Source: Bacteroidota bacterium (GTDB taxonomy: Bacteria > Bacteroidota > Bacteroidia > Chitinophagales > Saprospiraceae). From it: DNA of 64,000 bases. This document shows, piece by piece, positions 24,226 through 49,466 of the stretch; position 1 is the first letter of the stretch; each line of letters starts with the position of its first letter. The position numbers and the translations under genes are program-made. The notes under the pieces were generated by a model that was not told the DNA's origin, searched no databases, and saw only the letters and a program-made list of their open reading frames with translations. The stretch spans positions 124,001 to 188,000 of the forward strand of contig JASBVF010000003.1 of the NCBI GenBank assembly GCA_030147525.1, given 5' to 3'.

Positions 24226-24323
24226 GCAAGGTAGAAGGTGAGATAAGTCATTCAGGGTGACAAAACTCACCGCTTTTTTTTGATTATTGTCAATATTCCG
24301 GATAATCCCCGCCCTTAGCTTGG
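24226..24323. promoter_or_regulatory. Divergent promoter with tandem FNR/FixK-type boxes (ccoI operon and 24350 gene)
   Basis: Box TTGAT-TATT-GTCAA at 24280-24293 is a near-perfect FNR site. A weaker box GTGAC-AAAA-CTCAC sits at 24257-24270; centres are 23 bp apart. On the plus strand TAGCTTGG (24316-24323), a -7-like element, begins 29.5 bp from the centre of the strong box. On the minus strand TACCTTGC (24233-24226) begins 30.5 bp from the centre of the weak box, and the same octamer is found at the ccoS promoter. So one tandem site may serve both directions. Confidence 0.72.
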
Positions 24324-24349
24324 ATCTTTATTCACAATAAATACAGATA

Positions 24350-24772
24350 ATGAAAAATCAAACTGGAATTTGGATTACCTTCATGGAAGCCCTGCTGATC
24401 AACCTGGAAGACCAGCAGGAAGTGAACGCCGTTCACATCAGCTCAGATATCGAAACCTTGCAGGATGAGCAGGTTGGGAACTTCGGAAATTATCGGGAAG
24501 AAGCCATTGCTGCCAGCACCTTGTCTGAAGGCCTGAGAGCAAGGCAGGAACAGGCTTTTTTCGACAACATCATGTCAGACCTTGACGATCGTGCTGAACT
24601 ATACATCTTCGGCCCCGCAGAAGCCAAGTTTCAGCTTGAAAATGCCCTGCTACAAAACAACCGGTTCTCTAACAATATTCTGGCTGTGGAATCAGCGGAA
24701 GAAATGAACACTCAACAAAAAGTAAGCAGGGTAAAACAGTTCTTTAAATCAAGGTTCTTCGTATTGATATAA
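24350..24772 (+). CDS. Small protein resembling bacterial eRF1-like (baeRF/translational machinery) proteins
   Basis: 140 residues, no signal peptide or membrane segment. It starts GIWITFMEALLINL and has a late AELYIFGPAEAKFQLENALL segment. The 'IWID..kA.ii' start and the 'lIFGPgEaK' motif recall short bacterial proteins related to the third domain of eRF1, often found near stress genes in Bacteroidota; this is pattern memory, not a search. The function is unknown. It lies directly behind one of the best FNR-like boxes in the window (proximal box centre 63.5 bp from the ATG), which suggests induction at low oxygen. Hsp20 and rhodanese genes follow on the same strand. Confidence 0.7.
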   Translation: MKNQTGIWITFMEALLINLEDQQEVNAVHISSDIETLQDEQVGNFGNYREEAIAASTLSEGLRARQEQAFFDNIMSDLDDRAELYIFGPAEAKFQLENALLQNNRFSNNILAVESAEEMNTQQKVSRVKQFFKSRFFVLI

Positions 24773-24921
24773 ATCACCTGACTCACTGACCAACTGCATT
24801 TACAATTGAGCTGTTTTATTAACAGATTTGATGATAACCTAACTTCGTGGAGTTGTGTATCTGTTTGAAATTCAATGAATAAAGTAAACTCAGCTTTCAG
24901 GAAGGTACAAATATCATCGTC

Positions 24922-25362
24922 ATGTGGAGACCTAAAATCAAAAATCACACTTTCGACTGGATGGGTGAAAAATTTGCTCCCATGTTTGACAAAGATCACT
25001 TTCTCGGTCATAGTCCCATCGGCGTACCCAAGTGGAATCTCCCGCCGGTTAATCTGAAAAAGAATGGTCATTTGTTCGAAATGGAGTTACTCATTCCCGG
25101 TTTTGAAAAGGAAGAACTGGAAATCATTATACAGGACGACATTCTTACCGTTAAAGGCGAAAAGAGCAGAAAAAGCACGGTTGCTTCCAGCTATATTCTG
25201 GAAGAGTTTGATCTGGAATCTTTTGAAAGAAGATTTCGGCTGGGTAAAGGAATCGGCCATGAAAAAATTGAGGCGAAATACCGGAACGGTATTCTGAAAC
25301 TTACTTTCATCGATGTACCAAAAGAAAAAGAATTGGATTACCAGGAAGTCGCAGTTAGTTGA
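24922..25362 (+). CDS. Hsp20/alpha-crystallin small heat-shock protein
   Basis: ATP-independent holdase chaperone, 146 residues. The alpha-crystallin domain covers about residues 45-140: VNLKKNGHLFEMELLIPGF, then KEELEIIIQDDILTVKGEK, then FERRFRLGKGI, and the family signature near YRNGILKLTF. A short C-terminal tail follows. The 149-bp upstream gap has no complete FNR-like box, only a TTGAT half-site at 24828-24832, so its control may be by read-through from 24350 or separate. Confidence 0.93.
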   Translation: MWRPKIKNHTFDWMGEKFAPMFDKDHFLGHSPIGVPKWNLPPVNLKKNGHLFEMELLIPGFEKEELEIIIQDDILTVKGEKSRKSTVASSYILEEFDLESFERRFRLGKGIGHEKIEAKYRNGILKLTFIDVPKEKELDYQEVAVS

Positions 25363-25492
25363 CATTCATTTGATATCGCCTTTTTTGCAGAAAAAACATG
25401 CTTCGGGATTAACTCCCGTTTCGTATTGCAGGGGTGCAGGTTTATTTTCATTCAGCAGTATCCACACTGCTTTCACCATAAATTTTTTAATC

Positions 25493-25825
25493 ATGATGCA
25501 CAACCCGGATCATTCAGGAATCCCCCCTTCTGTGCTGCGAAGGTTGGTGGATCAGGGAGTTCAACTGGTGGATGTCCGCACACATTGCGAGTATGCAGGC
25601 TATCACATCAAAGGCTCTATCAACATTCCCTACGATGAAATTGGCAGGATGAGAGATTTTATTTTACGTCTCAACAAGCCCGTCATTACTTTCAGTACGT
25701 ATGGAAGGCGAAGCGAAATTGCTGCACAGCGTCTAAGAGCACTGGGCATTGTGGTGTATAATGCCGGAACGATTCACAACATCGAATTGGCTTTGAACCC
25801 GCAGGAGGAATTCGCTGAGCTCTAA
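25493..25825 (+). CDS. Rhodanese-like domain protein lacking the catalytic cysteine
   Basis: Single rhodanese fold, about 110 residues. Start placed at the ATG pair 25493/25496 (MMHNPDHSG); the longer frame upstream overlaps the hsp20 end and looks non-coding. Conserved rhodanese elements: VQLVDVRTHCEYAGYHIKGSINIP (CH2A-like) and a late RSEIAAQRLRALGI. The active-site loop reads FSTYGRRS where an active enzyme has YCRSGNRS, so the persulfide Cys is Ser. Sulfurtransferase activity is therefore unlikely; a binding or regulatory role is more plausible. It lies between Hsp20 and a run of USP genes. Confidence 0.85.
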   Translation: MMHNPDHSGIPPSVLRRLVDQGVQLVDVRTHCEYAGYHIKGSINIPYDEIGRMRDFILRLNKPVITFSTYGRRSEIAAQRLRALGIVVYNAGTIHNIELALNPQEEFAEL

Positions 25826-25971
25826 AAATCGACGGAACATTCATTATGAACAATCAAATGGTTTTGAGCGATAAACGAAAAACAAACGTACTGCCTGCAA
25901 TGTCCGGGCAGTAAGCTATATAGTATTTTACATCGCCAGAGGCCTCTATTTAAAAACAAAATAAAAACTGC

Positions 25972-26805
25972 ATGAAGCGTATTCTCGTCCCGACTGATTT
26001 TTCTGACTGCGCCGGCTATGCCGAAAAAGCCGGGATTGCCATTGCGAAGCAACTGAACGCCCAGCTGATTTTTCTTCACGGGTTATACCTCGGTATGGAT
26101 TGGAAAAGAGTAGCTGTTAGCGACGAAAAGAAATATCCGGAAAGCAGGGAGAAGGTAAAATTTGCGGAGCAAAGCCTCGACGCCCGTGTTGAAGCCGCAG
26201 AAATGGCAGGCGTAAATGTCCGTAAATCACTGGTCTTTCTGGAAAACTCCAAAAACCTGACAACTTCCATCATGGACGAACCGCATGATTTGATTATTCT
26301 TGGTTCGCACGGCAAGGGCAGTTTAAAAAAAATCATCATCGGTTCTAACACCGGCAAAATTCTGCGCACGTGCAAAACACCGGTGCTGGTACTTCAAAAA
26401 GACTTACCCCTGCCCCTCAATTTCAAAACCATTGTTTTTGCTTCCGGCCTTGAACCTGATACTCACGAAGCGCTCAGAAGATTACTTGAATTTTCGAATG
26501 GAATGGGCGCTGAAACACTTCATTTTGTAGGTGTCACCACACCCAATAACTTCAAGCCCACCAGTATTGTAATGGAAGAAATGAAGGCTTTCCTGAGCAA
26601 GCATAACTATCCGGGCATCCGGCTCAACAACTACAATCATTACAACGTCGAAGCGGGAATCCTGGAGTTTTCAAAACAGGTTGAGGCCAATATGATTGCC
26701 ATTTCCAATCACGGACGCACTGATTTGTCCGGTTTATTTATTGAAAGCATTCCGGAAAATCTTGTGAAGTATTCCGATCTGCCGGTGTTGAGCATCAGGG
26801 TTTAA
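25972..26805 (+). CDS. Tandem universal stress protein (N-terminal domain ATP-binding type)
   Basis: Two UspA domains, 277 residues. Domain 1 (1-140) starts MKRILVPTDFSDCAGYAEKAG and keeps the G-2X-G-9X-G(S/T) nucleotide motif as GSHGKGSLKKIIIGSN. Domain 2 (about 145-277) has lost it (ISNHGRTDLSGLFIESIPE). First of three consecutive USP genes; the next begins 17 bp downstream, so they are likely co-transcribed. No FNR-like box was found in the 146-bp gap before it. Confidence 0.95.
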   Translation: MKRILVPTDFSDCAGYAEKAGIAIAKQLNAQLIFLHGLYLGMDWKRVAVSDEKKYPESREKVKFAEQSLDARVEAAEMAGVNVRKSLVFLENSKNLTTSIMDEPHDLIILGSHGKGSLKKIIIGSNTGKILRTCKTPVLVLQKDLPLPLNFKTIVFASGLEPDTHEALRRLLEFSNGMGAETLHFVGVTTPNNFKPTSIVMEEMKAFLSKHNYPGIRLNNYNHYNVEAGILEFSKQVEANMIAISNHGRTDLSGLFIESIPENLVKYSDLPVLSIRV

Positions 26806-26822
26806 TAATAAAATAAAATACT

Positions 26823-27710
26823 ATGCAGCATTTCAAAAGAACATTGATAGCGATGGACCTCAGCAAGACGGACCGGTCGCTGCTGAAAATGGCTGCCATG
26901 CTCGCTCTCCCATTGGAAATCAGCCAGTTTTACCTACTGCACGTTATGCCTGATTTTGCCCGGCCCAGCAATCTCGATGTTGAATTTTACAAACTGTTCA
27001 ATCCGGAATACCCTGTCGATGAAAAAGTCAGGGATAAGCTGAAGCTTGAAGCCGCTGAAATTCTCGGCGACAACCCCGCCCGGTCCGTCGAAGTCAATGT
27101 TGTGGAAGGGAACCCGTATGAAAAACTGCTTCACTGGATCGACGTCAAAATGATCAATCTGCTCATGGTGGGTCATAAAAAAATCAGCCAAGGCAGCGGC
27201 ATTCAGGCCAGGAAGGTCGCAAGGGCTTCAAAAACCAACATTCTTTACGTCACCGAAAACCCGCCAGAGCGCATTCGCCGCATTCTGGTACCCACCGATT
27301 TTTCGGATGAAGGCGTCAATGCCCTGCGCACAGCGCTCAATCTTTCTTATGCCATTGGCAACGTCGAGGTAACCCTCCTGCACGTTATCCCGCAGCCATC
27401 GGCTGTTTTTTATGACCCTGCCTGGGAATACAATACCTTCCAGGATGCCCTGAAAGAATCTGCAAAGAGATCCTGCGACAAGTTTATTGCCGAAAATGGC
27501 TTCGAGGGCGACCACTTTGAGACAGTTATGATCGATGATGATTTCAGCAGTATTTCAAGGCACATCCATGAGTACGCCGTTGAACATAGAACAGACCTTA
27601 TCGTAATGGGAGCAAAGGGACACACCGCTCTCAACAACCTGATTTTTGGCAGTGTGACGGAATCTTTGCTGGAGCGGTCGAGGGAGCATTTGATGTTGGT
27701 GGTTCGATAA
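26823..27710 (+). CDS. Tandem universal stress protein (C-terminal domain ATP-binding type)
   Basis: Two UspA domains, 295 residues. Domain 1 starts KRTLIAMDLSKTDRSLLK and its motif is degenerate (GHKKISQGSGIQARKVAR). Domain 2 starts IRRILVPTDFSDEGVNALR and keeps GAKGHTALNNLIFGSVTE, the ATP-binding signature. This is the mirror image of the preceding gene's pattern. A closely similar paralogue follows after 53 bp. Confidence 0.95.
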   Translation: MQHFKRTLIAMDLSKTDRSLLKMAAMLALPLEISQFYLLHVMPDFARPSNLDVEFYKLFNPEYPVDEKVRDKLKLEAAEILGDNPARSVEVNVVEGNPYEKLLHWIDVKMINLLMVGHKKISQGSGIQARKVARASKTNILYVTENPPERIRRILVPTDFSDEGVNALRTALNLSYAIGNVEVTLLHVIPQPSAVFYDPAWEYNTFQDALKESAKRSCDKFIAENGFEGDHFETVMIDDDFSSISRHIHEYAVEHRTDLIVMGAKGHTALNNLIFGSVTESLLERSREHLMLVVR

Positions 27711-27763
27711 AAACACCGCTTTAAAACAACGTAATCCCTGTTTTTACAGAGAAATCAAATCAC

Positions 27764-28651: not shown

Positions 28652-28952
28652 TTTGAAATCAACAAAAACTGAACCCTTACTCTTCTGACTTGCTGACAAG
28701 CGTTGTCGGTAACCTTAGGAAAAACGACAAAGTATGACAAGTCAAATCAGGATTAAGGAAATAGCCTGTAATTTTCATCTCTTAATTACCGCAAAATCTG
28801 TAAGGTGTTTTTTTAAGGAGTACAAGTTGAGGAGCACCGATTAGTCAATGTTGAGCGCTGATTAGTCATTGTAGAGCACAGAATGTACCTTCCTAGAAAA
28901 AGTAAGGGGTGAGAGCTCACGCCCACACCCCAACTTCTATTCATAATTGCCA
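28652..28952. repeat. Convergent intergenic region with a 21-bp imperfect direct repeat
   Basis: 301 bp between the convergent USP and tonB genes; no gene is seen. It holds two adjacent 21-bp units, 28839-28859 and 28860-28880, both starting GATTAGTCA and matching at 17 of 21 positions, preceded by a partial GGAGCACC. A short GACAA/TTGTC hairpin near 28695 has no T-run. Function unknown. Confidence 0.6.
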
Positions 28953-29861: not shown

Positions 29862-29935
29862 AATTTTCCGATTTAGCGTTAGAAATTGTTGTATTCTTTC
29901 ACTTGCTAAATTCGGTTTTGAGACATGTTTATTCA

Positions 29936-29971: not shown

Positions 29972-29978
29972 TTTTCAT

Positions 29979-30567: not shown

Positions 30568-30579
30568 GTTGTGATTGTG

Positions 30580-33417: not shown

Positions 33418-33497
33418 CGATGAATTATGAACTATGAACTTTGAACAGCAACTCCCGAGTTGTCTTGTTCATCGTTCATAGTTCATCGTTTATAATT
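33418..33497 (-). repeat. Intercistronic palindrome built from 7-bp repeats (ccoNO-ccoQ)
   Basis: The right arm on the plus strand reads GTTCATC GTTCATA GTTCATC GTTTATA; the left arm has the complementary TATGAAC-type units. The centre is CAACTC-CC-GAGTTG. It forms a long hairpin in the ccoNO-ccoQ spacer and closely resembles the element at 43025-43102. Confidence 0.78.
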
Positions 33498-35640
33498 ATT
33501 TCTCCGCTTGCGGCAGTGCCGAAATATCCACGCCGAGGCGCTGGAGGTAAGCGATCAATGCCACAATTTCCTTGTTTTCCAGACCTTCCTGCTCAATGCC
33601 GTCAGCACGCAGACTGGCTGCGATTTTACCGGCTTGTTTTGCAAGGTCTTCGTTGGCTATTTCCTCGTAGCCCTCCTGGTAAGGAGTGCCCAGTTGACGA
33701 AGCACCTTGATCTTGGAAGCGGTTGTGGAAATATCCAGGTCGTCAGTAATCAGCCACGGATAAGCCGGCATGATCGACTGCTCGTACACGTTGCGCGGGT
33801 TGAGCATGTGGTTGTAATGCCAGCTGTCTGACTTCTTGAGTTTCCCGACTCCCTCACGGGCAAGGTCAGGTCCGGTACGCTTGGAGCCCCAGAGGAACGG
33901 ACGGTCGTAAACGAACTCGCCGGACTTGGAATACTCGCCGTAGCGCTCCGTTTCAAACCTGAGCGGTCGAACCATCTGGGAGTGACAGCCAAGGCAGCCT
34001 TCCCGCACGTAGATATCACGCCCCTGCAATTCGAGTGGCGTGTAAGGCGTCACGGTTTCAATTTTCGGAACATTTTCATCGATGAAAGCCATGGGCAGGT
34101 ATTCGACCAAGCCACCAATGGCCACAAGAACAAAACTTGCCACCAGCAATTGGATCGGGCGGCGCTCGATCCAACGGTGCCAGTGTGACTTGTCTTCAGC
34201 AACGGCAGCGGCCGGGCGTGGAGGAGCTTCGGCAGCCTCATTAGCAACGAGATTGCCGGTTTGAATCGTCTTCCAGACGTTGTAAACGCCCAATACCACC
34301 CCGGCAAGGAAAAGCAAGCCACCCAGCGAACGAATCGCATACATCGGGATGATCTGCGTCACCGTTTCCAGGAAGTTTGGATAAACGAGGAAGCCGTCCG
34401 GCGTAAATGCCCGCCACATCACGTTTTGCACAACTGCCGACCAATACATCGGAATGGCGTAGAAAATGATACCAAGCGTGCCCAGCCAGAAGTGGACGTT
34501 GGCTTGTTTTATCGAATAAAGTTTTGTGTTAAAAATGCGTGGAATGAGCCAGTAAATCACCCCGAATGTGAGCATACCGTTCCAGCCCAGCGCTCCGACG
34601 TGTACGTGACCGATGGTCCAGTCAGAATAGTGAGTGACGGCGTTCCAGCTCTTGATCGACATCATGGGGCCTTCAAAAGTGGACATACCGTAAGCGGTCA
34701 CTGCCACAACCATAAATTTCAAAATTGGATCTTCACGGACCCGGTCCCAGGCGCCCCGTAGGGTGAGCAGACCGTTGAGCATACCACCCCAGGATGGGGC
34801 AATCAGCATCAGTGAAAACAACATGCCGAGCGATTGTGCCCACTCAGGCAAGGAGGTGTAGAGTAAGTGGTGAGGACCTGCCCAGATGTAAATGAATATA
34901 AGCGCCCAAAAGTGAATGATGGACAAACGGTAAGAATAAACCGGCCTGTTAGCCGCCTTCGGCAAATAGTAGTACATCAATCCGAGGTAGGGCGTGGTAA
35001 GGAAAAACGCCACCGCATTGTGTCCGTACCACCACTGCACCAGCGCCTCCTGCACACCGGCAAAAACGCCGTAGGCATGCGTCATGCTGGTAGGAATTGA
35101 AATATTGCGAACGATGTGGAGCAACGCCACGGTAATCCAGGTAGCAATATAAAACCAGATTGCCACGTAGAGGTGCTCTTCCCGGCGCTTGAGGATGGTG
35201 CCAAACATATTGATGCCAAAAATCACCCAGACCAGCGCAATGGCAATATCGATGGGCCATATCAACTCTGCATACTCACCGCTGCTGGTCAGACCAAGCG
35301 GCAAAGTGAGTGCTGCAGCGACGATGATAGCCTGCCAGCCCCAAAAGTGGATGTTGCTCAACAGATCGCTGAACATTCTTGCCTTGAGCAAACGTTGAAG
35401 CGAATAATAAACGCCCATGTAAATACCATTGCCGACAAATGCAAAAATGACTGCGTTGGTGTGCAATGGGCGTAAACGGCCGAAAGTCAGCCATGGCACT
35501 TCAAAGTTGAGCGCCGGAATGTAAAGTTGCAATGCAATCAGTAAACCCACCGTCATGCCCACCACTCCCCAGAGCAGCGTAGCGTAGGCGAATTTTTTCA
35601 CAATGGCATTGTCATAGTGGAATTTTTCTACTTGACTCAT
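33496..35640 (-). CDS. ccoNO: Fused CcoN-CcoO, cbb3 cytochrome oxidase catalytic subunit plus mono-heme subunit
   Basis: Terminal oxidase with high O2 affinity. Residues 1 to about 475 are the 12-TM heme-copper subunit CcoN: RPLHTNAVIFAFVGNG (low-spin heme His), QEALVQWWYGHNAVAFFLTT (CuB region), and IGHVHVGALGWNGML. After a Pro/Ala linker (EAPPRPAAAV), one TM helix and the CcoO domain follow, with heme c site CLGCHSQMVRPLRFETERYG and a late distal region SIMPAYPWL. 714 residues. Fusion of N and O is known in Bacteroidota. Second gene of the operon after ccoS. Confidence 0.97.
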   Translation of the reverse strand: MSQVEKFHYDNAIVKKFAYATLLWGVVGMTVGLLIALQLYIPALNFEVPWLTFGRLRPLHTNAVIFAFVGNGIYMGVYYSLQRLLKARMFSDLLSNIHFWGWQAIIVAAALTLPLGLTSSGEYAELIWPIDIAIALVWVIFGINMFGTILKRREEHLYVAIWFYIATWITVALLHIVRNISIPTSMTHAYGVFAGVQEALVQWWYGHNAVAFFLTTPYLGLMYYYLPKAANRPVYSYRLSIIHFWALIFIYIWAGPHHLLYTSLPEWAQSLGMLFSLMLIAPSWGGMLNGLLTLRGAWDRVREDPILKFMVVAVTAYGMSTFEGPMMSIKSWNAVTHYSDWTIGHVHVGALGWNGMLTFGVIYWLIPRIFNTKLYSIKQANVHFWLGTLGIIFYAIPMYWSAVVQNVMWRAFTPDGFLVYPNFLETVTQIIPMYAIRSLGGLLFLAGVVLGVYNVWKTIQTGNLVANEAAEAPPRPAAAVAEDKSHWHRWIERRPIQLLVASFVLVAIGGLVEYLPMAFIDENVPKIETVTPYTPLELQGRDIYVREGCLGCHSQMVRPLRFETERYGEYSKSGEFVYDRPFLWGSKRTGPDLAREGVGKLKKSDSWHYNHMLNPRNVYEQSIMPAYPWLITDDLDISTTASKIKVLRQLGTPYQEGYEEIANEDLAKQAGKIAASLRADGIEQEGLENKEIVALIAYLQRLGVDISALPQAEK

Positions 35641-35862: not shown

Positions 35863-35928
35863 GCAAGGTAGAGCGGGAGGGAGGGGTGCCAGATGATTTT
35901 AGTCAAGGGGGGCACTGACATTTGTCAT
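35863..35928 (-). promoter_or_regulatory. cbb3 operon promoter with tandem FNR/FixK-type boxes
   Basis: Boxes ATGAT-TTTA-GTCAA (35893-35906) and CTGAC-ATTT-GTCAT (35915-35928) have centres 22 bp apart. On the minus strand TACCTTGC (35870-35863), a TAnnTTTG-like -7 element, begins 29.5 bp from the proximal box centre. This puts the boxes at about -41.5 and -63.5 from a start site near 35858, 26 bp before the ccoS ATG. Confidence 0.78.
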
Positions 35929-41020: not shown

Positions 41021-43012
41021 TTATTGCACGGCAGGTTCAGTCCCTGTCCACCACTTCAAAGCAGTGGGCGAATTGGCAGCGGATACCCGGAGGTAGCCCT
41101 GCATTTCCTGGTGAAGCGCCGAGCAGAAGTCGGTACAATAGAACGGAAATACTCCTTCTTTTTTCGGTTCCCAGAGCAAGGTTTCAGTTTGCCCCGGCAT
41201 GATCAGCAACTCAGCGTTGTTGGCGCCCATGACGGCAAAGCCGTGGGGCACGTCAAAGTCCTGTTCGAGGTTGGTTACGTGGAAGTACACTTTGTCGCCC
41301 ACCTTGAACCCTTCGATGTTGTCAGGAGCGAAGTGACTTCTGATGGTTGTCATGTAAACCCTTACCACATTTCCTTCCCGGACCACTCTGGTATCCTTCT
41401 CGCTGGTCGTTTTATATGGGTGCATGTTTTCGCTCAACTTGAAGAACTGCTTGCTTTTCGGTTTTACCCGGTCGGCAGAGATGCCCTGTGCGTAGTGAGG
41501 CTCACCGATGGTCGGGAAGTCGAGCAATAGTTGCATTTTATCACCGGAAATATCAATCAGCTGAGCAGACTGCGTCAACTCAGGTCCGGTCGGCAGGTAG
41601 CGGTCTTTCGTAATCTTGTTCAAAGCAACGAGGTATTTGCCCTGTGGCTTCTTGGTATCGCCGCCCGGCACCATCAGGTGACCGATGGAGTAATACGTCG
41701 GGATGCGGTCAAGGACTTCCCAGGTACCCACTTTCCATTTCACCACCTCCGAAGAGATGAAGAAGCTGGTGTAAGCGTTGCCGTTGTTGTCAAATTCTGT
41801 GTGAAGCGGGCCGAGTCCTGGTTCTTTCACCACACCACCAACTACTGCTTCGTATTGCAAAACTGGAATGCCGTACTTGTCGCCGTCAAACTTCTTTTCG
41901 TCAATAGCCTTCAGCATGTTGGTGAAAGAGTGAGCCGTCAAGTCGGTGGAAAGCTTACCGGAACCGATGATGTATTCGCCGGTTGGGTCAACATCCACAC
42001 CGTGCGGAGACTTCGGCGTAGGCAGGAAGTACACCAAACCCGGACAATCGGCAGGATCGAGCACTTTCACGCTGGTGATCAACTTGCTGGTCGCCATTTG
42101 GGTACTTTCATCAAAATAGTTGTGCATGTAGTTGGCAGGGAAATCTTTCGCTTTGCCCTGGGCCAGGTATTCCTCGGCTTTTTTCCAGTTGACGGCAGCG
42201 ATAAAATCCTTGTCATTTTGGGAAGCATTCACTTCCAGCAGGGAGTTTTTCTCCTCCGTGTTGTAGGTGGTGAAAAACATCCAGCCGTGAGATTTATTCT
42301 TACCGGCATGTGCCAAATCATAATCAAAACCAGGCATCAGCACCTGAAATTCAACGTTCATTTTACCGGTCTCCTTGTCAACTTTGATGAAAGACAAAGC
42401 GCCTTTGAAATTACCGGCATAGTCAGAAATACGCATGTCTTTTTGCGGAATCGGCACGCTGAAACGGGTACCTGCCACTACGTACTCTGTATTTTCAGTA
42501 GTAAACGGAGAACTGTGGTTACCGCCACTGTTAGGCAGTTCAATGGTTTCCACGGTTTCAAAAACACTCAAGTCGATACGGGCCACACGTGGCGTGTTGT
42601 TGCCATTGATAAAACACCAGCGGCCGTCCGTTTCACCGTTCGTCTGCGAAAGTTCAGGGTGGTGAGCATCATCCCAGGGGATGAATCCATGAGAAGTGTT
42701 GAGCAACGGCTTTGTTTCTTCATTGAAGCCGTAACCCTTTTCAGCATCGACAGAGAAGACCGGAATAACCCGGAACAACCGGCCCGAAGGCAATCCGTAA
42801 ACACTCAGTTGACCGCTGAAGCCACCTGAAATGAAGGAGTAAAATTCGTCGTGCTCCCCGGGGGCTACGTAAACTTTGGAGGCAGCATCGCCACTGAGCG
42901 CTCCGCCACCTGAGCCTTGTTGGCCCGTTTGTGCGCAACCGGCGAATACCAAAAAGGCAAGTGTCAGCCCGGCTGCGAGAAATAATTGGAAAGGACTTGG
43001 TAAGTTTTTCAT
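41021..43012 (-). CDS. nosZ: Nitrous-oxide reductase NosZ, Sec-dependent (clade II type)
   Basis: Reduces N2O to N2 in the periplasm. 663 residues. N-terminal Sec-type signal with lipobox-like VFAGC (Cys26) and no twin-arginine motif, as in clade II. The seven-bladed propeller carries the CuZ histidines (for example DDAHHPEL, DYDLAHAGKNKSHGW, SPHGVDVDPTGEY, LGPLHTEFD). The C-terminal cupredoxin has the CuA motif FYCTDFCSALHQEMQGYLRV. Encoded after a cytochrome c gene and before nosL-D-F-Y. Together with tandem FNR-like boxes upstream this predicts expression at low O2. Confidence 0.96.
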   Translation of the reverse strand: MKNLPSPFQLFLAAGLTLAFLVFAGCAQTGQQGSGGGALSGDAASKVYVAPGEHDEFYSFISGGFSGQLSVYGLPSGRLFRVIPVFSVDAEKGYGFNEETKPLLNTSHGFIPWDDAHHPELSQTNGETDGRWCFINGNNTPRVARIDLSVFETVETIELPNSGGNHSSPFTTENTEYVVAGTRFSVPIPQKDMRISDYAGNFKGALSFIKVDKETGKMNVEFQVLMPGFDYDLAHAGKNKSHGWMFFTTYNTEEKNSLLEVNASQNDKDFIAAVNWKKAEEYLAQGKAKDFPANYMHNYFDESTQMATSKLITSVKVLDPADCPGLVYFLPTPKSPHGVDVDPTGEYIIGSGKLSTDLTAHSFTNMLKAIDEKKFDGDKYGIPVLQYEAVVGGVVKEPGLGPLHTEFDNNGNAYTSFFISSEVVKWKVGTWEVLDRIPTYYSIGHLMVPGGDTKKPQGKYLVALNKITKDRYLPTGPELTQSAQLIDISGDKMQLLLDFPTIGEPHYAQGISADRVKPKSKQFFKLSENMHPYKTTSEKDTRVVREGNVVRVYMTTIRSHFAPDNIEGFKVGDKVYFHVTNLEQDFDVPHGFAVMGANNAELLIMPGQTETLLWEPKKEGVFPFYCTDFCSALHQEMQGYLRVSAANSPTALKWWTGTEPAVQ

Positions 43013-43102: not shown

Positions 43103-43106
43103 AAAT

Positions 43107-43574
43107 TTAAAGTGTTCTGAAATATTCGAGTACCGCTCTGGCCTCTTCCTGGGTCAGATTCTGGTTGGCCATGGGTGAGCCGTTGTACTCCATGAGTAAT
43201 TTTTTAGCGATGGGGTCTTCTTTGACCATTTGCTCAGGGTTTAGGATCATGTTCATGACCCACTCCGGTGAGCGGCGTTCGAGGATGCCTTTTGGTGCTG
43301 GTCCGATAAATTTTTCGGTGGCCTTGTGGCAGGCAGTACACATTTTATTGTATACGTCCTCCCCTTTAGCAGCCATTGCTTCATCCACTGAAGCACCTAG
43401 CGAGACCTCAGAAATAGGACCTATACCTTTGTTTTCGAGTGGATCAACCTCGTCAGCTACCATAGATTTAGGCTTAGGCTTGCTGGCGTCAGCTGAAGAT
43501 GAAGTGTCTCCCCCGCACCCTATGGCACCAGCCAGGAGCAAGAGGGCGAAGAGGTGCAAAACGATAGATTTCAT
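43107..43574 (-). CDS. Mono-heme cytochrome c lipoprotein of the nos operon
   Basis: Probable electron donor to NosZ. 155 residues. Lipobox AIGC (Cys20), a Ser/Lys/Pro linker, then a cytochrome c domain with CTACH (Cys79, Cys82, His83) and a distal Met region NGSPMANQNLTQEEARAVLEYF. First gene of the nos operon; nosZ follows after the 7-bp-repeat hairpin. The tandem boxes and a -7-like element lie upstream. Confidence 0.92.
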   Translation of the reverse strand: MKSIVLHLFALLLLAGAIGCGGDTSSSADASKPKPKSMVADEVDPLENKGIGPISEVSLGASVDEAMAAKGEDVYNKMCTACHKATEKFIGPAPKGILERRSPEWVMNMILNPEQMVKEDPIAKKLLMEYNGSPMANQNLTQEEARAVLEYFRTL

Positions 43575-43647: not shown

Positions 43648-43743
43648 CAAAGATTGGATGCTTAGGCGGTGTGTCAGATGACATACATCAGGGCAAAAAA
43701 TGACATTTATCATTATTGAGAAAAAAGGATATTTTTATCCGTT
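43648..43743. promoter_or_regulatory. Divergent nos / Rrf2 promoter with tandem FNR/FixK-type boxes
   Basis: Boxes ATGAC-ATAC-ATCAG (43678-43691) and ATGAC-ATTT-ATCAT (43700-43713) have centres 22 bp apart. Toward nos, AATCTTTG (43655-43648, minus strand) begins 29.5 bp from the nearer box and matches TAnnTTTG except for its first base. Toward Rrf2, a TA at 43736 is 29.5 bp from the other box and TTTTG follows, a weaker -7. Confidence 0.72.
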
Positions 43744-43778
43744 TTGTTAACTTTACGTTTCAATAAAGCTCCTGAAAA

Positions 43779-44225
43779 ATGTTTTCACGTTCATGTCAAT
43801 ACGCACTCAGATCTGTGATTTATCTGGCCCGCAACTCCAAGGCCGAAAAAAAGACAGGCGTAAAAGAAATAGCCGACACGCTTGCAATTCCTCAACAGTT
43901 TCTCGCTAAAATCTTGCAGCAATTATCCAAACACAACCTCATTTCTTCTACCAAAGGACCGAACGGCGGCTTTTACCTGACGGATGAAAACATGACAGTT
44001 TCGCTGCTTCAGATCGTCGAATGTATTGACGGACCGGACACCCTTACCTCCTGCGTGATGGGGCTGCCAAATTGTTCCACGGAAAAGCCATGCCCGCTTC
44101 ACATCCATGTTTATGACTGGCGGGAAGAGTTTAGAAATATGCTGTCGAGCCGGCGGATCAATGATTTTTTGATACCAAAACAGGGCGATCTGGACGATTT
44201 TATGAGTGTAGTTCTCTCACGGTGA
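43779..44225 (+). CDS. Rrf2-family regulator with a three-Cys cluster motif (NsrR/IscR-like)
   Basis: 148 residues. N-terminal winged helix: SCQYALRSVIYLARN, then KEIADTLAIPQQFLAKILQQ, then GPNGGFYL in the wing. The cluster-binding loop has three Cys in CVMGLPNCSTEKPCPLH (spacing C-x7-C-x5-C), as in Fe-S Rrf2 proteins such as NsrR and IscR. Divergent from the nos operon, so NO or Fe-S/redox sensing of nos or of stress genes is plausible; the exact subfamily cannot be decided here. Confidence 0.9.
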   Translation: MFSRSCQYALRSVIYLARNSKAEKKTGVKEIADTLAIPQQFLAKILQQLSKHNLISSTKGPNGGFYLTDENMTVSLLQIVECIDGPDTLTSCVMGLPNCSTEKPCPLHIHVYDWREEFRNMLSSRRINDFLIPKQGDLDDFMSVVLSR

Positions 44226-44288
44226 TAAAAATCAACTTGCGCAACTGACCCCGATCACCCTTTTCACACTGTTTCCCGTCTACCTTAC
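44222..44288 (+). promoter_or_regulatory. USP promoter with tandem FNR/FixK-type boxes
   Basis: Boxes GTGAT-AAAA-ATCAA (44222-44235) and CTGAC-CCCG-ATCAC (44245-44258) have centres 23 bp apart. TACCTTAC (44281-44288), a partial TAnnTTTG, begins 29.5 bp from the proximal centre. Predicted start near 44293, 25 bp before the ATG. Confidence 0.72.
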
Positions 44289-44317
44289 GGGAGGTTTAAC
44301 ATTCAAAATACATTGCC

Positions 44318-45271
44318 ATGAAAACAGCCGAGTTTGTTGAGATAGATAAAAGCTTACCTGCTATTCCTCCCTTTCGTGTGAAAGAATGCCTCATCGGCGT
44401 TGATTTCAATGTATCGATAGAGGCGTTACTGCATTACTTTAATTTTTTTGCAAAAGCAGTGCCGGTCGAATCAGTGCATTTCCTGCACGCTGTACCACTG
44501 CCTGACCTATTCAATCTTTACGAAGATCAAAATGACATTCAGCTCGAAGACAGAACGGCAAGGAATGATATCATCGAAAAGTTAAGATTGCAAGCGAATC
44601 ATGCTGTTCCAAACATCGACCCCTCGAAATTCCGAATTGAAGTGAAGGAGGGTAACCCGCTGGAAAAACTGTTGGAAACAGCCAGGGAAATTAATTCTGA
44701 CCTGGTTGTGATCGGTCACAACGTTACCCAGACACACCATGGAATTTTGACCAAAAACTTTGCCCGGCAGATAAAAAGTAATGCATTGGTTGTGCCAAGC
44801 AAAGCCAGAAGTTCACTGAAGAAAATACTCGTTCCGGTTGATTTTTCTAAAAACTCGGTTTATGCTTTGCACACGGCAATAGCGATCAACAGACAGCAGC
44901 CCAAACCTGTGAAAATCGGTATTTTGCACACCTACAACCTGCCGGCTAATTTCAGCGCTTATCGTTTTAATGAGTCCAAAGTGATGGAAATGCTGGAAGA
45001 GGATCGTGAAAACGCTATCCAGGATTTTATCGGAGAATATGTACCGAAGGCTGACCGAAAATACGTTGAGCCTATTTTGATTAAACACAATCACTACAGC
45101 ATCGGCCACCACATCGCCGCTTTCGCTGACAGCCATAAATTTGATCTGATAGTGATGGGCGCCAAAGGTCATTCAAAAGTGGAGTTGTTATTCATTGGAA
45201 GTGTGACGGAAAAGGTGCTTGCTTTGACCAAAAAAGTACCTGTGCTTGTGGTGAGAAAGTCACCTATCTGA
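44318..45271 (+). CDS. Tandem universal stress protein (C-terminal domain ATP-binding type)
   Basis: 317 residues. A leader of about 24 residues precedes the first UspA domain, whose motif is degenerate (GHNVTQTHHGILTKNFARQ). Domain 2 starts LKKILVPVDFSKNSVYALH and keeps GAKGHSKVELLFIGSVTEK. A close paralogue follows after 96 bp with its own promoter boxes, so the two are separately transcribed duplicates. Confidence 0.95.
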   Translation: MKTAEFVEIDKSLPAIPPFRVKECLIGVDFNVSIEALLHYFNFFAKAVPVESVHFLHAVPLPDLFNLYEDQNDIQLEDRTARNDIIEKLRLQANHAVPNIDPSKFRIEVKEGNPLEKLLETAREINSDLVVIGHNVTQTHHGILTKNFARQIKSNALVVPSKARSSLKKILVPVDFSKNSVYALHTAIAINRQQPKPVKIGILHTYNLPANFSAYRFNESKVMEMLEEDRENAIQDFIGEYVPKADRKYVEPILIKHNHYSIGHHIAAFADSHKFDLIVMGAKGHSKVELLFIGSVTEKVLALTKKVPVLVVRKSPI

Positions 45272-45274
45272 TGG

Positions 45275-45340
45275 ATGACTTTAATCAATTTTTATCCTGA
45301 CTATGGTCATTCAAGGGCAAACGCACTCACCGTAGATTTG
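45275..45340 (+). promoter_or_regulatory. USP promoter with tandem FNR/FixK-type boxes and a perfect -7
   Basis: Boxes ATGAC-TTTA-ATCAA (45275-45288) and CTGAC-TATG-GTCAT (45297-45310) have centres 22 bp apart. TAGATTTG (45333-45340) is a perfect TAnnTTTG element starting 29.5 bp from the proximal centre. Predicted start near 45345, 23 bp before the ATG. Confidence 0.82.
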
Positions 45341-45367
45341 CCCCTGTGACCTTCAAACTTCATAAAG

Positions 45368-46315
45368 ATGAAAGTAGCATCCCAAGGAATTATTGAAATA
45401 AGCAAAGGTCCAATTGTTCCGTTCGTTGTTCATGAGGCTTTGGTAGGATTAGGGTTAGAGGATGACGAAATGGTTTTGAAGTACCTGGGCTATCTGGCAG
45501 AACATCTTGAAATTAATGCTGCCCGTTTTGTCCACGTAATTCCATCCATTGATCTGTTCGACCGGAAGAATGGAGTACAAAGCTACCAATTCGAAAAGTA
45601 CGAATTGAACCAGAAAGTCGCCGACGATCTTGCCGCTAAGATTTCGAACCACATCAATAAAAAGAGCGATGTCAAAGTCGATTTTGATGTAAGAGACGGC
45701 AACCCCCTGGATGAATTGATACAAAGTGCAGAATCGGCGGAGGCTGATTTGGTGGTCATTGGAAAAAGTTCCAAACGGGATCACCACGGGATTTTAGCTA
45801 AAAACTTTGCACGGAAAGTCAAATGCAATGCGCTCCTGATTCCGGACAAGGCGAAATTAACAATGAAAAAAATCCTGGTTCCGGTTGACTTTTCGCCAAA
45901 CTCAATTGAAGCATTGCGCACAGCCGTGGCATTTTCAAAATGTTTTGCCAAAGCACCCACGATCATTGCGCTGAATGTATATGAATTGCCGATTTTCCAG
46001 GCTTACCTGGTGCGGAAATCGATGGATGAAATGCGGGAAATCCTGATCGAAGATCGTCAGGCCGCTTTCAAATCATTTCTCGAAACGTATTTCGAGCCGG
46101 AAGACCGAAACCGGATTAAAACAGACATCATCGAACAAACGCATCCGGGCGTCGGCAATTTTATTATGGATTATGCGGAAGCTAATAAAGCCGATCTGGT
46201 CGTGATGGGTGCCAAAGGACACTCTAAAGTCGGACTGCTGCTTATGGGCAGTATCACCGAGAAAATTTTGGGTGTAACGCAGCATATTCCCGTACTGGTT
46301 GTGAAAATGACATAG
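45368..46315 (+). CDS. Tandem universal stress protein (C-terminal domain ATP-binding type)
   Basis: 315 residues, paralogue of the preceding gene. Domain 1 is degenerate (GKSSKRDHHGILAKNFARK). Domain 2 starts MKKILVPVDFSPNSIEALR and keeps GAKGHSKVGLLLMGSITEK. A strong terminator follows about 90 bp after the stop, so it is monocistronic. Confidence 0.95.
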   Translation: MKVASQGIIEISKGPIVPFVVHEALVGLGLEDDEMVLKYLGYLAEHLEINAARFVHVIPSIDLFDRKNGVQSYQFEKYELNQKVADDLAAKISNHINKKSDVKVDFDVRDGNPLDELIQSAESAEADLVVIGKSSKRDHHGILAKNFARKVKCNALLIPDKAKLTMKKILVPVDFSPNSIEALRTAVAFSKCFAKAPTIIALNVYELPIFQAYLVRKSMDEMREILIEDRQAAFKSFLETYFEPEDRNRIKTDIIEQTHPGVGNFIMDYAEANKADLVVMGAKGHSKVGLLLMGSITEKILGVTQHIPVLVVKMT

Positions 46316-46405
46316 TTAGTGTTCGTTACATGCTTTACAAAAACGGACGCCGCATAAAAAAAGTAAACAGGGTTTTTTGGTCACATAGGTTAGTTTTCTT
46401 CTAAG

Positions 46406-46442
46406 ACCGTCAAAACGCAAGTTTTGACGGTTTTTCTTTTTT
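46406..46442 (+). terminator. Intrinsic terminator after the second USP of the pair
   Basis: Perfect 11-bp stem ACCGTCAAAAC (46406-46416) / GTTTTGACGGT (46421-46431) with a GCAA tetraloop, followed by TTTTCTTTTTT. Confidence 0.88.
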
Positions 46443-46506
46443 GAGAAGAATCAACAACCCGGCTGACATTTATCAACGACAACAGCAGTCGACGAAGATA
46501 TATTTG
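46441..46506 (+). promoter_or_regulatory. Promoter with tandem FNR/FixK-type boxes and a perfect -7 (46528 gene and USP)
   Basis: Boxes TTGAG-AAGA-ATCAA (46441-46454, one imperfect half) and CTGAC-ATTT-ATCAA (46463-46476) have centres 22 bp apart. TATATTTG (46499-46506) is a perfect TAnnTTTG element 29.5 bp from the proximal centre. Predicted start near 46511, 17 bp before the ATG at 46528. Confidence 0.82.
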
Positions 46507-46527
46507 ATAAAACTAAAGCTGCTGTTA

Positions 46528-46899
46528 ATGAAAATCTCCGATGACAAAACCATTCGTGAATTGCAGGAGGAATTTCAAAACCTTTTTCCTTACCTCAAAC
46601 TTGAATTCTTCCCACTACCCTCTCTTAAACCTTCGAAATGGATAGCAAAACAACCATTACCGCCGGACAGCTTCATTGGCGAGGCCCGAATCGTCCACAA
46701 CCGTGGTTCAATCGACCTTGACCCAGAGCTGTCTGCTCAGGCTCTCAAGCAAATTTTTCTGGATATATTTGGATTAAAAACAAGGCTTTACCGGAAGTCC
46801 TCCGGCAGATGGGTCTCCATAACTACATACGACCTTTTGGCACTGAAAGAGCAAAATCTGCGCAGTTTATTATCTGATGTCAGAGCATTGATTATCTGA
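46528..46899 (+). CDS. Small conserved-looking protein of unknown function, co-transcribed with a USP
   Basis: 123 residues from MKISDDKTIRELQEEFQNLF; the predicted transcript start at about 46511 rules out the longer frame. No signal peptide or membrane segment. The visible pattern is an N-terminal helix (IRELQEEFQNLFPYLKLEFF), a central SIDLDPELSAQALKQIFLDIFGL helix region, and an end part RLYRKSSGRWVSITTYDLLALKEQNLRSLL. I associate this pattern with an unnamed Bacteroidota family found near USP genes, but that is recollection and was not checked. It lies 48 bp before the USP start. Confidence 0.72.
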   Translation: MKISDDKTIRELQEEFQNLFPYLKLEFFPLPSLKPSKWIAKQPLPPDSFIGEARIVHNRGSIDLDPELSAQALKQIFLDIFGLKTRLYRKSSGRWVSITTYDLLALKEQNLRSLLSDVRALII

Positions 46900-46947
46900 G
46901 TGAGTATTCGGCAAATCAGTCTCTCACTTTTCAATATCCGATCAACC

Positions 46948-47760
46948 ATGAAAAAAATTCTCTTTCCTACCGACTTTTCCCTGGCGGCACAAAAGGCATT
47001 TGGCTTTGCTGTTGCGCTGGCCAGACAGATGGATGCTAAAATCGATGTGCTCAACATTTACCACCTTCCGTTTATCGATGCGACAAACGTTCCGTCCCAA
47101 TACCTTGATGAAATGCTGGAGGAGAAGCGAAAAGTGGTAAAGGAAAACCTTGAAGAGTTTGTTAAAGAACAACCTGCTTCGCTAATTGGAGAGCTGATCG
47201 CTGCCTACGGTATTTTCATTCCGGAAGAAATAAAAGAACTCGTTAAGGATGGCAAGTACGATCTCATCGTCATGGGAACCAAAGGAGAGCATCACTCCAA
47301 ACTGGAAAAAATCATGGGAAGTGTTACCACGCATACCATGCTACAGTCGGATTGCCCGGTGCTGGCGGTGCCAGAGGAAGCCAGATGGAATGAGTTGAAA
47401 AGAATTGCATTTGCCACCGATTTTGAAATCAAAGATTACAATGCAGTGAGCAGATTGATGGACTTTGCATCAACACTTGCCGCAGAAGTTCACTTCGTGC
47501 ACGTAGAAACCAAGCCTAAAATCGGACAGATGGAAGATTGTATTTCCCTGCCCAATTACCCATTTCAGTTTTCAGAGTTTGCCGTAGTGAACAGCCCGAC
47601 TGTGATGGAAGGAATTGATAAATACATCAAGGAAAAACGGATTGACCTGCTCGCACTTTTCATTCCAAAAAGAAGGCTCTGGGAACGCCTGTTCCATACC
47701 AGTTTTACTAAAAAAATGACATTCCACAGCCGCACGCCCCTGCTCGTTTTTCAAGGTTGA
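46948..47760 (+). CDS. Tandem universal stress protein (N-terminal domain ATP-binding-like)
   Basis: 270 residues from MKKILFPTDFSLAAQKAFGF. Domain 1 carries GTKGEHHSKLEKIMGSVTT, one residue longer than the canonical G-2X-G-9X-G(S/T) spacing. Domain 2 has lost the motif (LFIPKRRLWERLFHTSFTKK). Domain 2 resembles that of the 50258 gene (both have R-x-x-W/F-E-x-L-F-H). Its last codons overlap the convergent membrane-protein gene by 10 bp. Confidence 0.94.
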   Translation: MKKILFPTDFSLAAQKAFGFAVALARQMDAKIDVLNIYHLPFIDATNVPSQYLDEMLEEKRKVVKENLEEFVKEQPASLIGELIAAYGIFIPEEIKELVKDGKYDLIVMGTKGEHHSKLEKIMGSVTTHTMLQSDCPVLAVPEEARWNELKRIAFATDFEIKDYNAVSRLMDFASTLAAEVHFVHVETKPKIGQMEDCISLPNYPFQFSEFAVVNSPTVMEGIDKYIKEKRIDLLALFIPKRRLWERLFHTSFTKKMTFHSRTPLLVFQG

Positions 47761-48218
47761 ACAAGAGGCAACTTCTGGTTTTTAAAAAGAAACCAAAGCC
47801 CAAGAACCATGAACAGCGTTGCCGGAAAAGCAGATCCGACACCCAACGGAACGATTGCCAGTAAGAAAAACGCCGCACCAAGCAAGGCGGGCAGCAGCAG
47901 TTTTCCATTTAAAAAAAGACCTGCCGCAATGGCAAGTTGTCCAAGTGCAATCAAAACAACCAGGAATGTGGTGTTTTGAGCAAAGAAACCATAAATGAAG
48001 GCTTTGTAGAAGGTAAGGAAAGTGAATTTACCGTAGTCGAGGTAGGCTGAAGGCTTGAAGATGGCCATCCATATGTTGACCCCCGCAGCGAACAGGAAAA
48101 TAGTACCAAAAAAATACCTGCCGGCCCGCTGCCATTTGTAACAAACAAATACCAGTACCAACGACAGGATATTTGAGAAAAACCACGGTAGCAGGAATTT
48201 TTCAACTTCTTGTATCAT
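47751..48218 (-). CDS. Small polytopic membrane protein (DoxX-like in outline), function unknown
   Basis: 155 residues, four to five TM helices (FFSNILSLVLVFVCY, YFFGTIFLFAAGVNIWMAIF, TTFLVVLIALGQLAIAAGLF, LLGAAFFLLAIVPLGV, LFMVLGLWFLF). The G-Q-L-A-I-A-A-G-L helix and the overall helix pattern recall DoxX/MauE-type proteins, without a decisive motif. No Cys pair or metal motif is seen. It overlaps the convergent USP 3' end by 10 bp and precedes two CBS genes that lie upstream on its own strand; it may belong to their transcript. Confidence 0.7.
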   Translation of the reverse strand: MIQEVEKFLLPWFFSNILSLVLVFVCYKWQRAGRYFFGTIFLFAAGVNIWMAIFKPSAYLDYGKFTFLTFYKAFIYGFFAQNTTFLVVLIALGQLAIAAGLFLNGKLLLPALLGAAFFLLAIVPLGVGSAFPATLFMVLGLWFLFKNQKLPLVQP

Positions 48219-48248
48219 GAGTCTTGCCGTTGGTTTTCAGAGCGCTTT

Positions 48249-48695
48249 TCATTCGAGAAATGCGGGTTCACTGAACGCAAAGTTCAGCATGTCAAATGTT
48301 GTGACGATCCCGACGAGTTTACCCTGTTTGTCAACAACCGGGATGGCATGAAACAGGTTTTCCCTGAAATATCCGGCAGCCACCATCACACTGTCACCGG
48401 GGTTTACTTTAGCAACCTGCTTGGTCATCACCTCTTTGACGAGCAGCGAACGCAGAATCGCTTTGTTGTATTCGTCGCTCTTTTCAGTTTTAAAAAGTGT
48501 GAAGCCATGCAAAATTTTATGGTAATCAGTATGACTGAGAATACCCACCACTTTGTCATCGTCGCTGATAACTGGGATGTGGTGAATATTATTCATCCGG
48601 AAAATATCACTGACCCTGTCCATTGTGTCATTAGGTTTGACAAACAGCACTTTTGTGGTCATGATTTGGCCGATGGTTACTGTTTTATCGAACAT
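48249..48695 (-). CDS. CBS-domain pair protein
   Basis: 148 residues made of two CBS motifs (Bateman module) and nothing else: VTIGQIMTTKVLFVKPND with NNIHHIPVISDDDKVVGILSH, then VKEVMTKQVAKVNPGDSV with NLFHAIPVVDKQGKLVGIVT. Such stand-alone pairs bind adenine nucleotides; mycobacterial Hrp1 is the comparison. Paralogous to the next gene upstream and to 49596. It follows the other CBS gene by 36 bp on the same strand, so the two are probably an operon. Confidence 0.93.
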   Translation of the reverse strand: MFDKTVTIGQIMTTKVLFVKPNDTMDRVSDIFRMNNIHHIPVISDDDKVVGILSHTDYHKILHGFTLFKTEKSDEYNKAILRSLLVKEVMTKQVAKVNPGDSVMVAAGYFRENLFHAIPVVDKQGKLVGIVTTFDMLNFAFSEPAFLE

Positions 48696-48731
48696 GGCAA
48701 ATATTTTTAGATGAAAAAATAGAGGTCTATT

Positions 48732-49178
48732 TTAATCTTCTTCATAGTTGGCAATTTCAACATCGCCCTCCACGGGGGAGGAATAGCTGTAAGCAAGCAA
48801 ATCGTGACTGGTAACAATGCCGACCAACCTACCGTCTTCGACGATGGGAAGTGCATGAAATTTATTGGCTAAAAAAATATCCGCAGCCAATCCAATGGTA
48901 TCATCAGGATCGAGATGCAGCGGGTATTTAGTCATGATATCCTGAGCCTCCAAAGATTGAAATTTTTGCTTCATTCCCTCGACTGAGAGTACATAAGCTA
49001 CTTTATAATAATCCTCCCGGCTGATAATCCCCAGTAGTTCACCATTGTTGCCGATGATCGGAATGTGATGAAACTTGTTGGCTTCAAATATCTTCCGGAT
49101 AACCGTTAACGGTTCGCTCGCTTTGGCAGTGATCAGCTCACTGCTCATGATGCTTTGAATTGACAGGTTAGGATTCAT
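48732..49178 (-). CDS. CBS-domain pair protein
   Basis: 148 residues, stand-alone CBS pair: LSIQSIMSSELITAKASE with NKFHHIPIIGNNGELLGIIS, then AQDIMTKYPLHLDPDDTI with NKFHALPIVEDGRLVGIVTS. Acidic tail EIANYEED. First gene of the minus-strand CBS pair. A tandem FNR-like box pair with a perfect -7 element lies upstream at 49308-49374. Confidence 0.93.
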   Translation of the reverse strand: MNPNLSIQSIMSSELITAKASEPLTVIRKIFEANKFHHIPIIGNNGELLGIISREDYYKVAYVLSVEGMKQKFQSLEAQDIMTKYPLHLDPDDTIGLAADIFLANKFHALPIVEDGRLVGIVTSHDLLAYSYSSPVEGDVEIANYEED

Positions 49179-49282
49179 GGTGAAAAAATTTAGTGTGAAT
49201 GACAGAGCTTTTGACCGGGCTTTTGGCAGGTTGACAGCAAGTTCAACCCCTGTTTTTCACCCATCTCAATTTACTATCTAAA

Positions 49283-49374
49283 ATGATGAAAATCAACTTT
49301 TGTACTCCAAATCTACCTTTACATACAAGGCATCTTCATGATAAAGGTCAATGAAGCGATATGACTTTCGTCAT
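49283..49374 (-). promoter_or_regulatory. Minus-strand CBS promoter with tandem FNR/FixK-type boxes and a perfect -7
   Basis: Boxes ATGAT-AAAG-GTCAA (49338-49351) and ATGAC-TTTC-GTCAT (49361-49374) have centres 23 bp apart. On the minus strand TAGATTTG (49315-49308) is a perfect TAnnTTTG element 29.5 bp from the proximal centre; predicted start near 49303. A third box ATGAT-GAAA-ATCAA (49283-49296) lies just downstream of that start, around +13, where bound protein could block rather than activate. Confidence 0.8.
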
Positions 49375-49429
49375 GGCTGCGCCGGCTGGTGTGGTAAAAA
49401 AGTACCAGTATTTTCAAGGACATTCGCAA

Positions 49430-49466
49430 TTGATGAAAATCAAAAACAATGGGTGACAAAAGTCAT
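49430..49466 (+). promoter_or_regulatory. Tandem FNR/FixK-type boxes upstream of the plus-strand CBS gene
   Basis: TTGAT-GAAA-ATCAA (49430-49443), a perfect FNR palindrome, and GTGAC-AAAA-GTCAT (49453-49466) have centres 23 bp apart. The expected -7 position (49489) has only GGATATTG or, one base later, GATATTGC, so the promoter is less certain. The gene starts 129 bp downstream. Confidence 0.68.

Follow-up and report, generated by a model that had tools for sequence, protein, structure and literature searches.

Tandem palindromes of the form TGAYN4RTCA precede respiratory and stress genes in a 64,000-nucleotide stretch of a Saprospiraceae genome (Bacteroidota bacterium, GenBank assembly GCA_030147525.1, contig JASBVF010000003.1, positions 124,001 to 188,000; hereafter the window). 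The analysis confirmed that these pairs are real and form a non-random, operator-like layout in this genome and its relatives. We consider it likely that they are paired class II sites from which a response regulator with a CRP/FNR-type output (receiver-CRP), together with an adjacent FixL-like histidine kinase, activates low-oxygen genes.

Spacing and location of the box pairs

All eight pairs that an earlier note on this DNA had listed in the window are present, but each box start had been given one base too low (1-based starts are in Table 1); both boxes match the pattern strictly in six pairs, while the distal boxes at 24258 and 46442 carry one mismatch each. A scan of the whole genome returned 18 pairs with a gap of 2-30 bp against 0 for the reversed-pattern control, and 17 of these 18 had a gap of 10 or 11 bp (start spacing 22 or 23 bp), the remaining one having a gap of 14 bp. 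The spacing proposed in the earlier note was thus borne out genome-wide, with a binomial P of 3e-19 for the phasing (2 of 29 gaps allowed), and chance clustering of the boxes was ruled out by this phasing together with the empty control. In genomes of the same genus 49 of 62 pairs had the 10- or 11-bp gap (seven of 13 genomes). Single boxes numbered 688 in the whole genome and 159 for the reversed pattern, a control which is biased at this level, as TGA/TCA and ACT/AGT need not be equally frequent. At two places in related genomes (G055:C2:2518584-2518639 and G053:C9:96410-96465) we noticed a series of three boxes spaced by 22 bp, which might allow three dimers to align.

It had been set down beforehand that pairs as common inside genes as upstream of them would speak against an operator role. 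Within 371,648 bases, comprising the window and 20 stretches chosen around pairs and CRP genes, where open reading frames (ORFs) covered 86% of the sequence (a local figure), one of 17 strict pairs lay inside a called ORF as compared with 29 of 47 single boxes. In the stretches from relatives 10 of 87 pairs lay inside ORFs, at an ORF coverage of 74%.

Promoter geometry

In seven of the eight window pairs, that of the nos genes (43655) included, a -7-like element begins exactly 29.5 bp from the centre of the proximal box, and three of these elements are perfect TAnnTTTG, both as claimed earlier; of the other four, two have one mismatch and two have two mismatches (TACCTTGC and TACCTTAC). Among 139 distinct pairs from this genome and related genomes, to which close relatives each contribute their own copy of an orthologous promoter, with kinship ignored in the statistics, 94 have TAnnTTTG with at most one mismatch at 29.5 or 30.5 bp on one side or both; eight shifted offsets give 3.5 on average. 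When the 122 pairs of the relatives were taken by themselves, the perfect element occurred 26 times at 29.5 bp, 13 times at 30.5 bp and at most three times at any other offset, and with one mismatch allowed the counts rose to 75 and 21, respectively. Single boxes with a perfect element in the source genome follow the same distances (9 at 29.5, 4 at 30.5 and 2 at 28.5 bp, with 14 spread over 28 other offsets).

According to an excerpt of PMC9723704, TAnnTTTG lies at -12 to -5 relative to mapped start sites in Flavobacterium psychrophilum, which would place the centre of the proximal box near -41.5 and that of the distal box at -63.5 or -64.5. A class II position of the proximal box is therefore supported, as a placement predicted from the -7-like element. 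The earlier proposal of a class II arrangement in which a second site lies 22-23 bp further upstream is supported on four counts: the phasing, the element in 94 of 139 pairs, the intergenic placement and the recurrence of pairs in 65 of 395 genomes of the phylum (reversed control, 2). The A+T fraction of the inner four bases is higher in distal boxes, at 0.84, than in proximal ones, at 0.66 (n = 94, Wilcoxon P 2e-6), and the distal box may, judging from this composition, be the stronger site.

Not every site is doubled, since single-box class II-like promoters are also present in this genome. Doubling as a universal rule was ruled out, several single boxes with a perfect element having no second box; doubling is the trait of a subset of promoters.

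Two other readings of the pairs bear on this geometry. One is that the two boxes serve divergent promoters, one each, with the spacing incidental. A -7 match on both sides, in line with this, is present in 10 of the 139 pairs, against 84 in which the match is one-sided, and the spacing is fixed at 22 or 23 bp in all own pairs save one; we regard this reading as highly improbable and ruled it out on the one-sided matches. That the boxes repress by obstructing the upstream part of the promoter draws on the fact that a site at -41.5 overlaps this part, and on Rhizobium FnrN, for which the part of PMC7888657 consulted describes a pair of anaeroboxes, of which the distal one activates and the proximal one represses. 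However, the repressing box lies there at -2 and not at -41.5, the geometry predicted here is identical to that of class II activation, and the target kinds are usually induced at low oxygen, all of which makes repression improbable.

Receiver-CRP and its adjacent kinase

The protein that we propose as binder of the boxes has a receiver domain with Asp52 (residues 4-115), a cyclic nucleotide monophosphate (cNMP)-binding fold and a Crp-type helix-turn-helix (HTH) with the segment VGTAKESVIRML. It belongs to the CRP/FNR superfamily (PF00027, 8.5e-23; PF13545, 2.6e-14), has no second full-length match in the genome and has orthologues in relatives. In CRP and FNR, a Glu and an Arg of the recognition segment contact the TGA half-sites, and VGTAKESVIRML retains both. 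Other identities were considered for this protein. An iron-sulphur FNR, which has a set of cysteines for a [4Fe-4S] cluster, was ruled out, as the protein has a single cysteine (Cys51, inside the receiver domain). It is not FixK, which is stand-alone while a receiver is present here, nor FixJ, as its output is a cNMP fold with a Crp HTH and no LuxR-type family is among its Pfam matches; the NarL-type regulator architecture of DosR/DevR is lacking as well.

The gene directly upstream encodes a histidine kinase whose PAS domain has FixL proteins as its seven best PDB matches (best E 3.4e-27). In the alignment to FixL, His87 lies in RERHDSY and Arg107 in IIGIGR, and His87 aligns with the His of FixL RSRHDSY, which is the heme ligand in FixL. 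At the sequence level the kinase thus combines a heme-PAS sequence bearing this His with a HisKA/HATPase core, and it is a probable oxygen sensor of the FixL heme-PAS type. For comparison 33 loci were taken, of which L206 was left out and five had no kinase directly upstream of receiver-CRP; the His column is kept in 27 of 27 upstream kinases and (I/V)IGxGREV in 19 of 27. Because a His at this position is common in PAS domains, the IIGIGR-type segment is the better sign of a heme-PAS.

A single-domain receiver (L062:11215-11586; G000:C57:119232), 47% identical to the receiver of the regulator, was noticed close to Hsp20 and ABC1-kinase genes, with a tandem pair on either side; it could compete for kinase phosphate.

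Co-occurrence and linkage across Bacteroidota

Presence of receiver-CRP was scored among the matches listed (E-value cutoff about 1e-24, with no more than seven candidates considered per genome), so that weaker ones may be missed. On this basis at least one pair was found in 39 of 56 genomes with a full-length receiver-CRP as compared with 26 of 339 without, and at least two pairs in 28 of 56 versus 4 of 339; within the class, the latter comparison gave 28 of 56 versus 2 of 42. The best full-length receiver-CRP gene had a pair no more than 10 kb away in 21 of 35 genomes (0.73 expected), and the best CRP match, whatever its kind, had one at such a distance in 23 of 43 (0.87 expected); these counts cover genomes with pair positions listed or the locus read, some with part of their pairs, and for some genomes the expectation used the larger counts at gap 2-30 bp. 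The kinase-regulator genes of G009 (L178) and G038 (L258) themselves have a pair with a -7 match in front of them, and so has the regulator gene of G448 (L197). The role of receiver-CRP as regulator of the boxes is thus supported by co-occurrence and by physical linkage, its binding being a prediction.

The regulator is carried by titled records of, among others, Chitinophaga, Jiulongibacter, Arcticibacter, Aquimarina and Sphingobacterium, which supports placing the system in Bacteroidota. Among the more distant, named loci, ten were analysed (an eleventh, L270, was left out), and two of the nine having a kinase show the FixL-type segment.

Correlations of match score with pair count in 60 relatives (Spearman 0.57 for receiver-CRP, 0.47 for the C51-type CRP and 0.29 for the short CRP) constitute weaker evidence.

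The most substantial rival holds that the boxes serve another CRP/FNR protein of the same genome, either the CRP at C51:101247-101951 or the short one at C58:55634-56215, and that receiver-CRP is a mere neighbour. Five of the other own CRPs have an RQ-type segment, and the C51 protein (SREVVTR, which we take to resemble E. coli CRP) and the C58 protein (PESLSR, presumably FNR-like) have Glu and Arg at the expected places. The C58 gene (L063:7635-8989, G000:C58) is immediately followed by a tandem pair and a YceI gene, and the C51 type is present in most relatives. With the C51 CRP, the genome encodes one more protein whose recognition segment would suit the boxes, and this slightly lowers our confidence in the proposed model and in its extension to the phylum (both given below). 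However, in the 17 genomes where a C51-type gene could be placed, none was linked to a pair within 10 kb, while the receiver-CRP-type match was so linked in 10 of these 17; for the best short CRP, linkage was seen in 1 of 10, that one being the source genome; the score correlations of both rivals also fall below that of receiver-CRP, by a modest difference. On balance we hold this rival to be unlikely. In G053, G330, G204 and G377 a tandem pair is found no more than a few hundred bases from a stand-alone CRP gene that has no receiver, which counts in its favour, and as some genomes with pairs list only a stand-alone CRP, a doubled layout may not strictly depend on a receiver. The 12.7 kb around the C51 CRP gene (L081, G000:C51:95000-107720) contain five single boxes, one of them just past the 3' end of this gene.

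Several further observations weigh against receiver-CRP and its kinase acting at these pairs. A close -7 match is lacking in 45 of the 139 pairs, and 8 of the 27 upstream kinases have a different PAS type. Half of the receiver-CRP genomes (28 of 56) have fewer than two strict pairs; conversely, four of the 26 pair-bearing genomes without a listed receiver-CRP have three or four. In 14 of 35 genomes, the source genome included, no pair lies within 10 kb of receiver-CRP, and none of the ten named loci has a strict pair in the up to 6 kb read on each side. Recognition residues retained by the C51 and C58 proteins, and the height of the C51-type correlation, belong here too; genome size by itself correlates with pair count at 0.51 in the same 60 relatives, and with the genus excluded the correlation of receiver-CRP score with pair density is 0.28 (P 0.055).

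Putative target genes

By position, the window pairs precede ccoNO, nos, Usp (universal stress protein) and CBS genes (Table 1). Elsewhere in the genome, pairs precede genes for Hsp20, YceI, a ferredoxin oxidoreductase, a multiheme cytochrome and a fasciclin protein, those of the ferredoxin oxidoreductase and the multiheme cytochrome being without a -7 match and that of the fasciclin gene being the pair with the 14-bp gap; one more precedes a porin-like gene, after which comes a gene for a molybdopterin oxidoreductase, of the nitrate reductase type as judged from its translation. The genes 3' of oriented pairs in all genomes read numbered 89; the other 58 of 147 pairs lacked either a -7 match or an ORF and yielded none. 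Among these 89 were 10 Usp, 7 CBS, 7 Hsp20 and 7 cytochrome c genes, 3 YceI, 2 HypA, 2 Rrf2 and 2 with HATPase_c, as counted from the 25 commonest of 76 Pfam families.

Table 1. Regulator, kinase, boxes and -7-like elements in the window
Feature	Position	Strand	Box starts	-7-like element	Remarks
Receiver-CRP response regulator, 349 aa	18480..19529	-			Pfam Response_reg, cNMP_binding, HTH_Crp_2; proposed box binder
PAS histidine kinase gene	19549..20880	-			20 bp upstream of regulator gene; Pfam PAS, HisKA, HATPase_c
Tandem boxes	24258..24292	+	24258/24281	TAGCTTGG, 24316..24323 (+), 29.5 bp from proximal centre	Distal box one mismatch; proximal box 24281-24292; 3' of element, ORF 24350-24772 (no Pfam family), then Hsp20, rhodanese, more ORFs
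Single box	24765..24776	+		TACAATTG, 24801-24808, 30.5 bp off	Precedes Hsp20 gene 24922-25362
Tandem boxes of ccoNO	35894..35927	-	35894/35916	TACCTTGC, 35863-35870	ccoNO 33496-35640, minus
Tandem boxes of nos genes	43679..43712	-	43679/43701	AATCTTTG, 43648-43655	Cytochrome c 43107-43574, NosZ 41021-43012, both minus
Tandem boxes of universal stress protein gene	44223..44257	+	44223/44246	TACCTTAC, 44281-44288	Gene 44318-45271
Tandem boxes of Usp-like ORF	45276..45309	+	45276/45298	TAGATTTG, 45333-45340	ORF 45368-46315 (Usp-like, from translation)
Tandem boxes	46442..46475	+	46442/46464	TATATTTG, 46499-46506	Distal box one mismatch; 3', short ORF (no Pfam family) and Usp-like ORF ending 47760 (from translation)
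Tandem boxes	49339..49373	-	49339/49362	TAGATTTG, 49308-49315	CBS-like ORFs 48732-49178 and 48249-48695, minus (from translation)
Tandem boxes	49431..49465	+	49431/49454	None at 28.5-30.5 bp	Precede CBS-domain gene 49596-50048

On the ccoI side of the 24258/24281 pair an element read by eye is again TACCTTGC, at 30.5 bp from the box. For this sequence, found at two cbb3-related promoters, the motif TAnnTTGY (SM5 of F. psychrophilum, in the excerpted text of PMC9723704) is a better fit than TAnnTTTG.

Comparison with known systems

Rhizobial FixL-FixK appears to be the closest parallel for the sensor and the boxes. As far as the sections of PMC7888657 at hand describe them, the FixL-FixJ-FixK and hFixL-FxkR-FixK systems of rhizobia share with the present one a heme-PAS kinase, a CRP/FNR-type activator, anaerobox-like palindromes and cbb3 (fixNOQP) targets. 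In contrast to FixL-FixJ-FixK, receiver and CRP/FNR output are here in one protein, so that there would be no transcriptional relay, many boxes are doubled, and the promoters are of the Bacteroidota TAnnTTTG type.

For the doubled sites, DevR (DosR) of Mycobacterium tuberculosis seems the closest working parallel. Excerpts of PMC3029386 and PMC6127331 describe a receiver-bearing regulator with HspX and Usp targets acting in hypoxia, with closely packed boxes of which the proximal one overlaps the -35 element; in the former the DevR receiver domain is required for cooperative binding to the second, adjacent site. DevR differs in being a NarL-type regulator, not a CRP/FNR protein, and in its sigma factor and box sequence. 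In the low-oxygen-activated (lxa) locus of Burkholderia cenocepacia, Usp and heat-shock genes likewise form a cluster, for which a FixK-like CRP has been suggested to be the regulator, but the locus belongs to another phylum, and a doubled class II operator is not described for it in the portion of PMC6127331 seen.

Class II promoters of E. coli FNR and CRP have the palindrome TGA-N6-TCA centred at about -41.5; the present promoters share the palindrome, and its predicted centre is at the same place. The present ones differ in the regulator, which is without the Fe-S cysteine set, and in the second site 22-23 bp upstream in this promoter group.

Proposed mechanism and its meaning

We propose that the paired palindromes are operators of a CRP/FNR-type activator, most likely receiver-CRP, which would occupy them as two adjacent dimers on roughly one face of the DNA. 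When oxygen falls, the FixL-like heme-PAS kinase would phosphorylate receiver-CRP at Asp52 and thereby switch the activator on; the phosphorylated, fused FixJ/FixK-like protein would then fill two touching sites, the proximal dimer at about -41.5 contacting RNA polymerase in class II fashion and the distal dimer at about -64 stabilising it, possibly through cooperative binding. The genes so activated would be those of low-oxygen respiration and survival (cbb3, nos, Usp, CBS and Hsp20), and the rhizobial FixL-FixJ-fixK relay would be collapsed into one kinase and one fused regulator. As a tentative extension, which we think somewhat more apt to fail than to hold, much of Bacteroidota may control these genes by oxygen in one step from FixL to receiver-CRP, through a phosphorylation-driven, cooperative dimer of dimers at a fixed class II site on the unusual sigma-A promoter of the phylum, this being a DosR-like hypoxia survival regulon of independent origin.

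Searches of the open-licence PMC literature listed no description of a doubled-site CRP/FNR regulon in Bacteroidota, and those aimed at a FixL-type heme histidine kinase in Bacteroidetes and at receiver-CRP returned no paper. CRP homologues of a Saprospiraceae and a Flavobacteriales metagenome-assembled genome are treated as MalR-like in the portion of PMC8510549 consulted. The analysis yields a predicted sensor, regulator, operator, promoter geometry and target list, the last covering N2O reduction and the high-affinity oxidase; this set recurs across numerous genomes and is open to bench experiments. To our knowledge, oxygen sensing and transcription activation at the TAnnTTTG promoters of Bacteroidota are little worked out. 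The present findings suggest a fused, direct version of the classical FixL-FixJ-FixK relay, and with them low-oxygen control in Bacteroidota is now open to experimental test.

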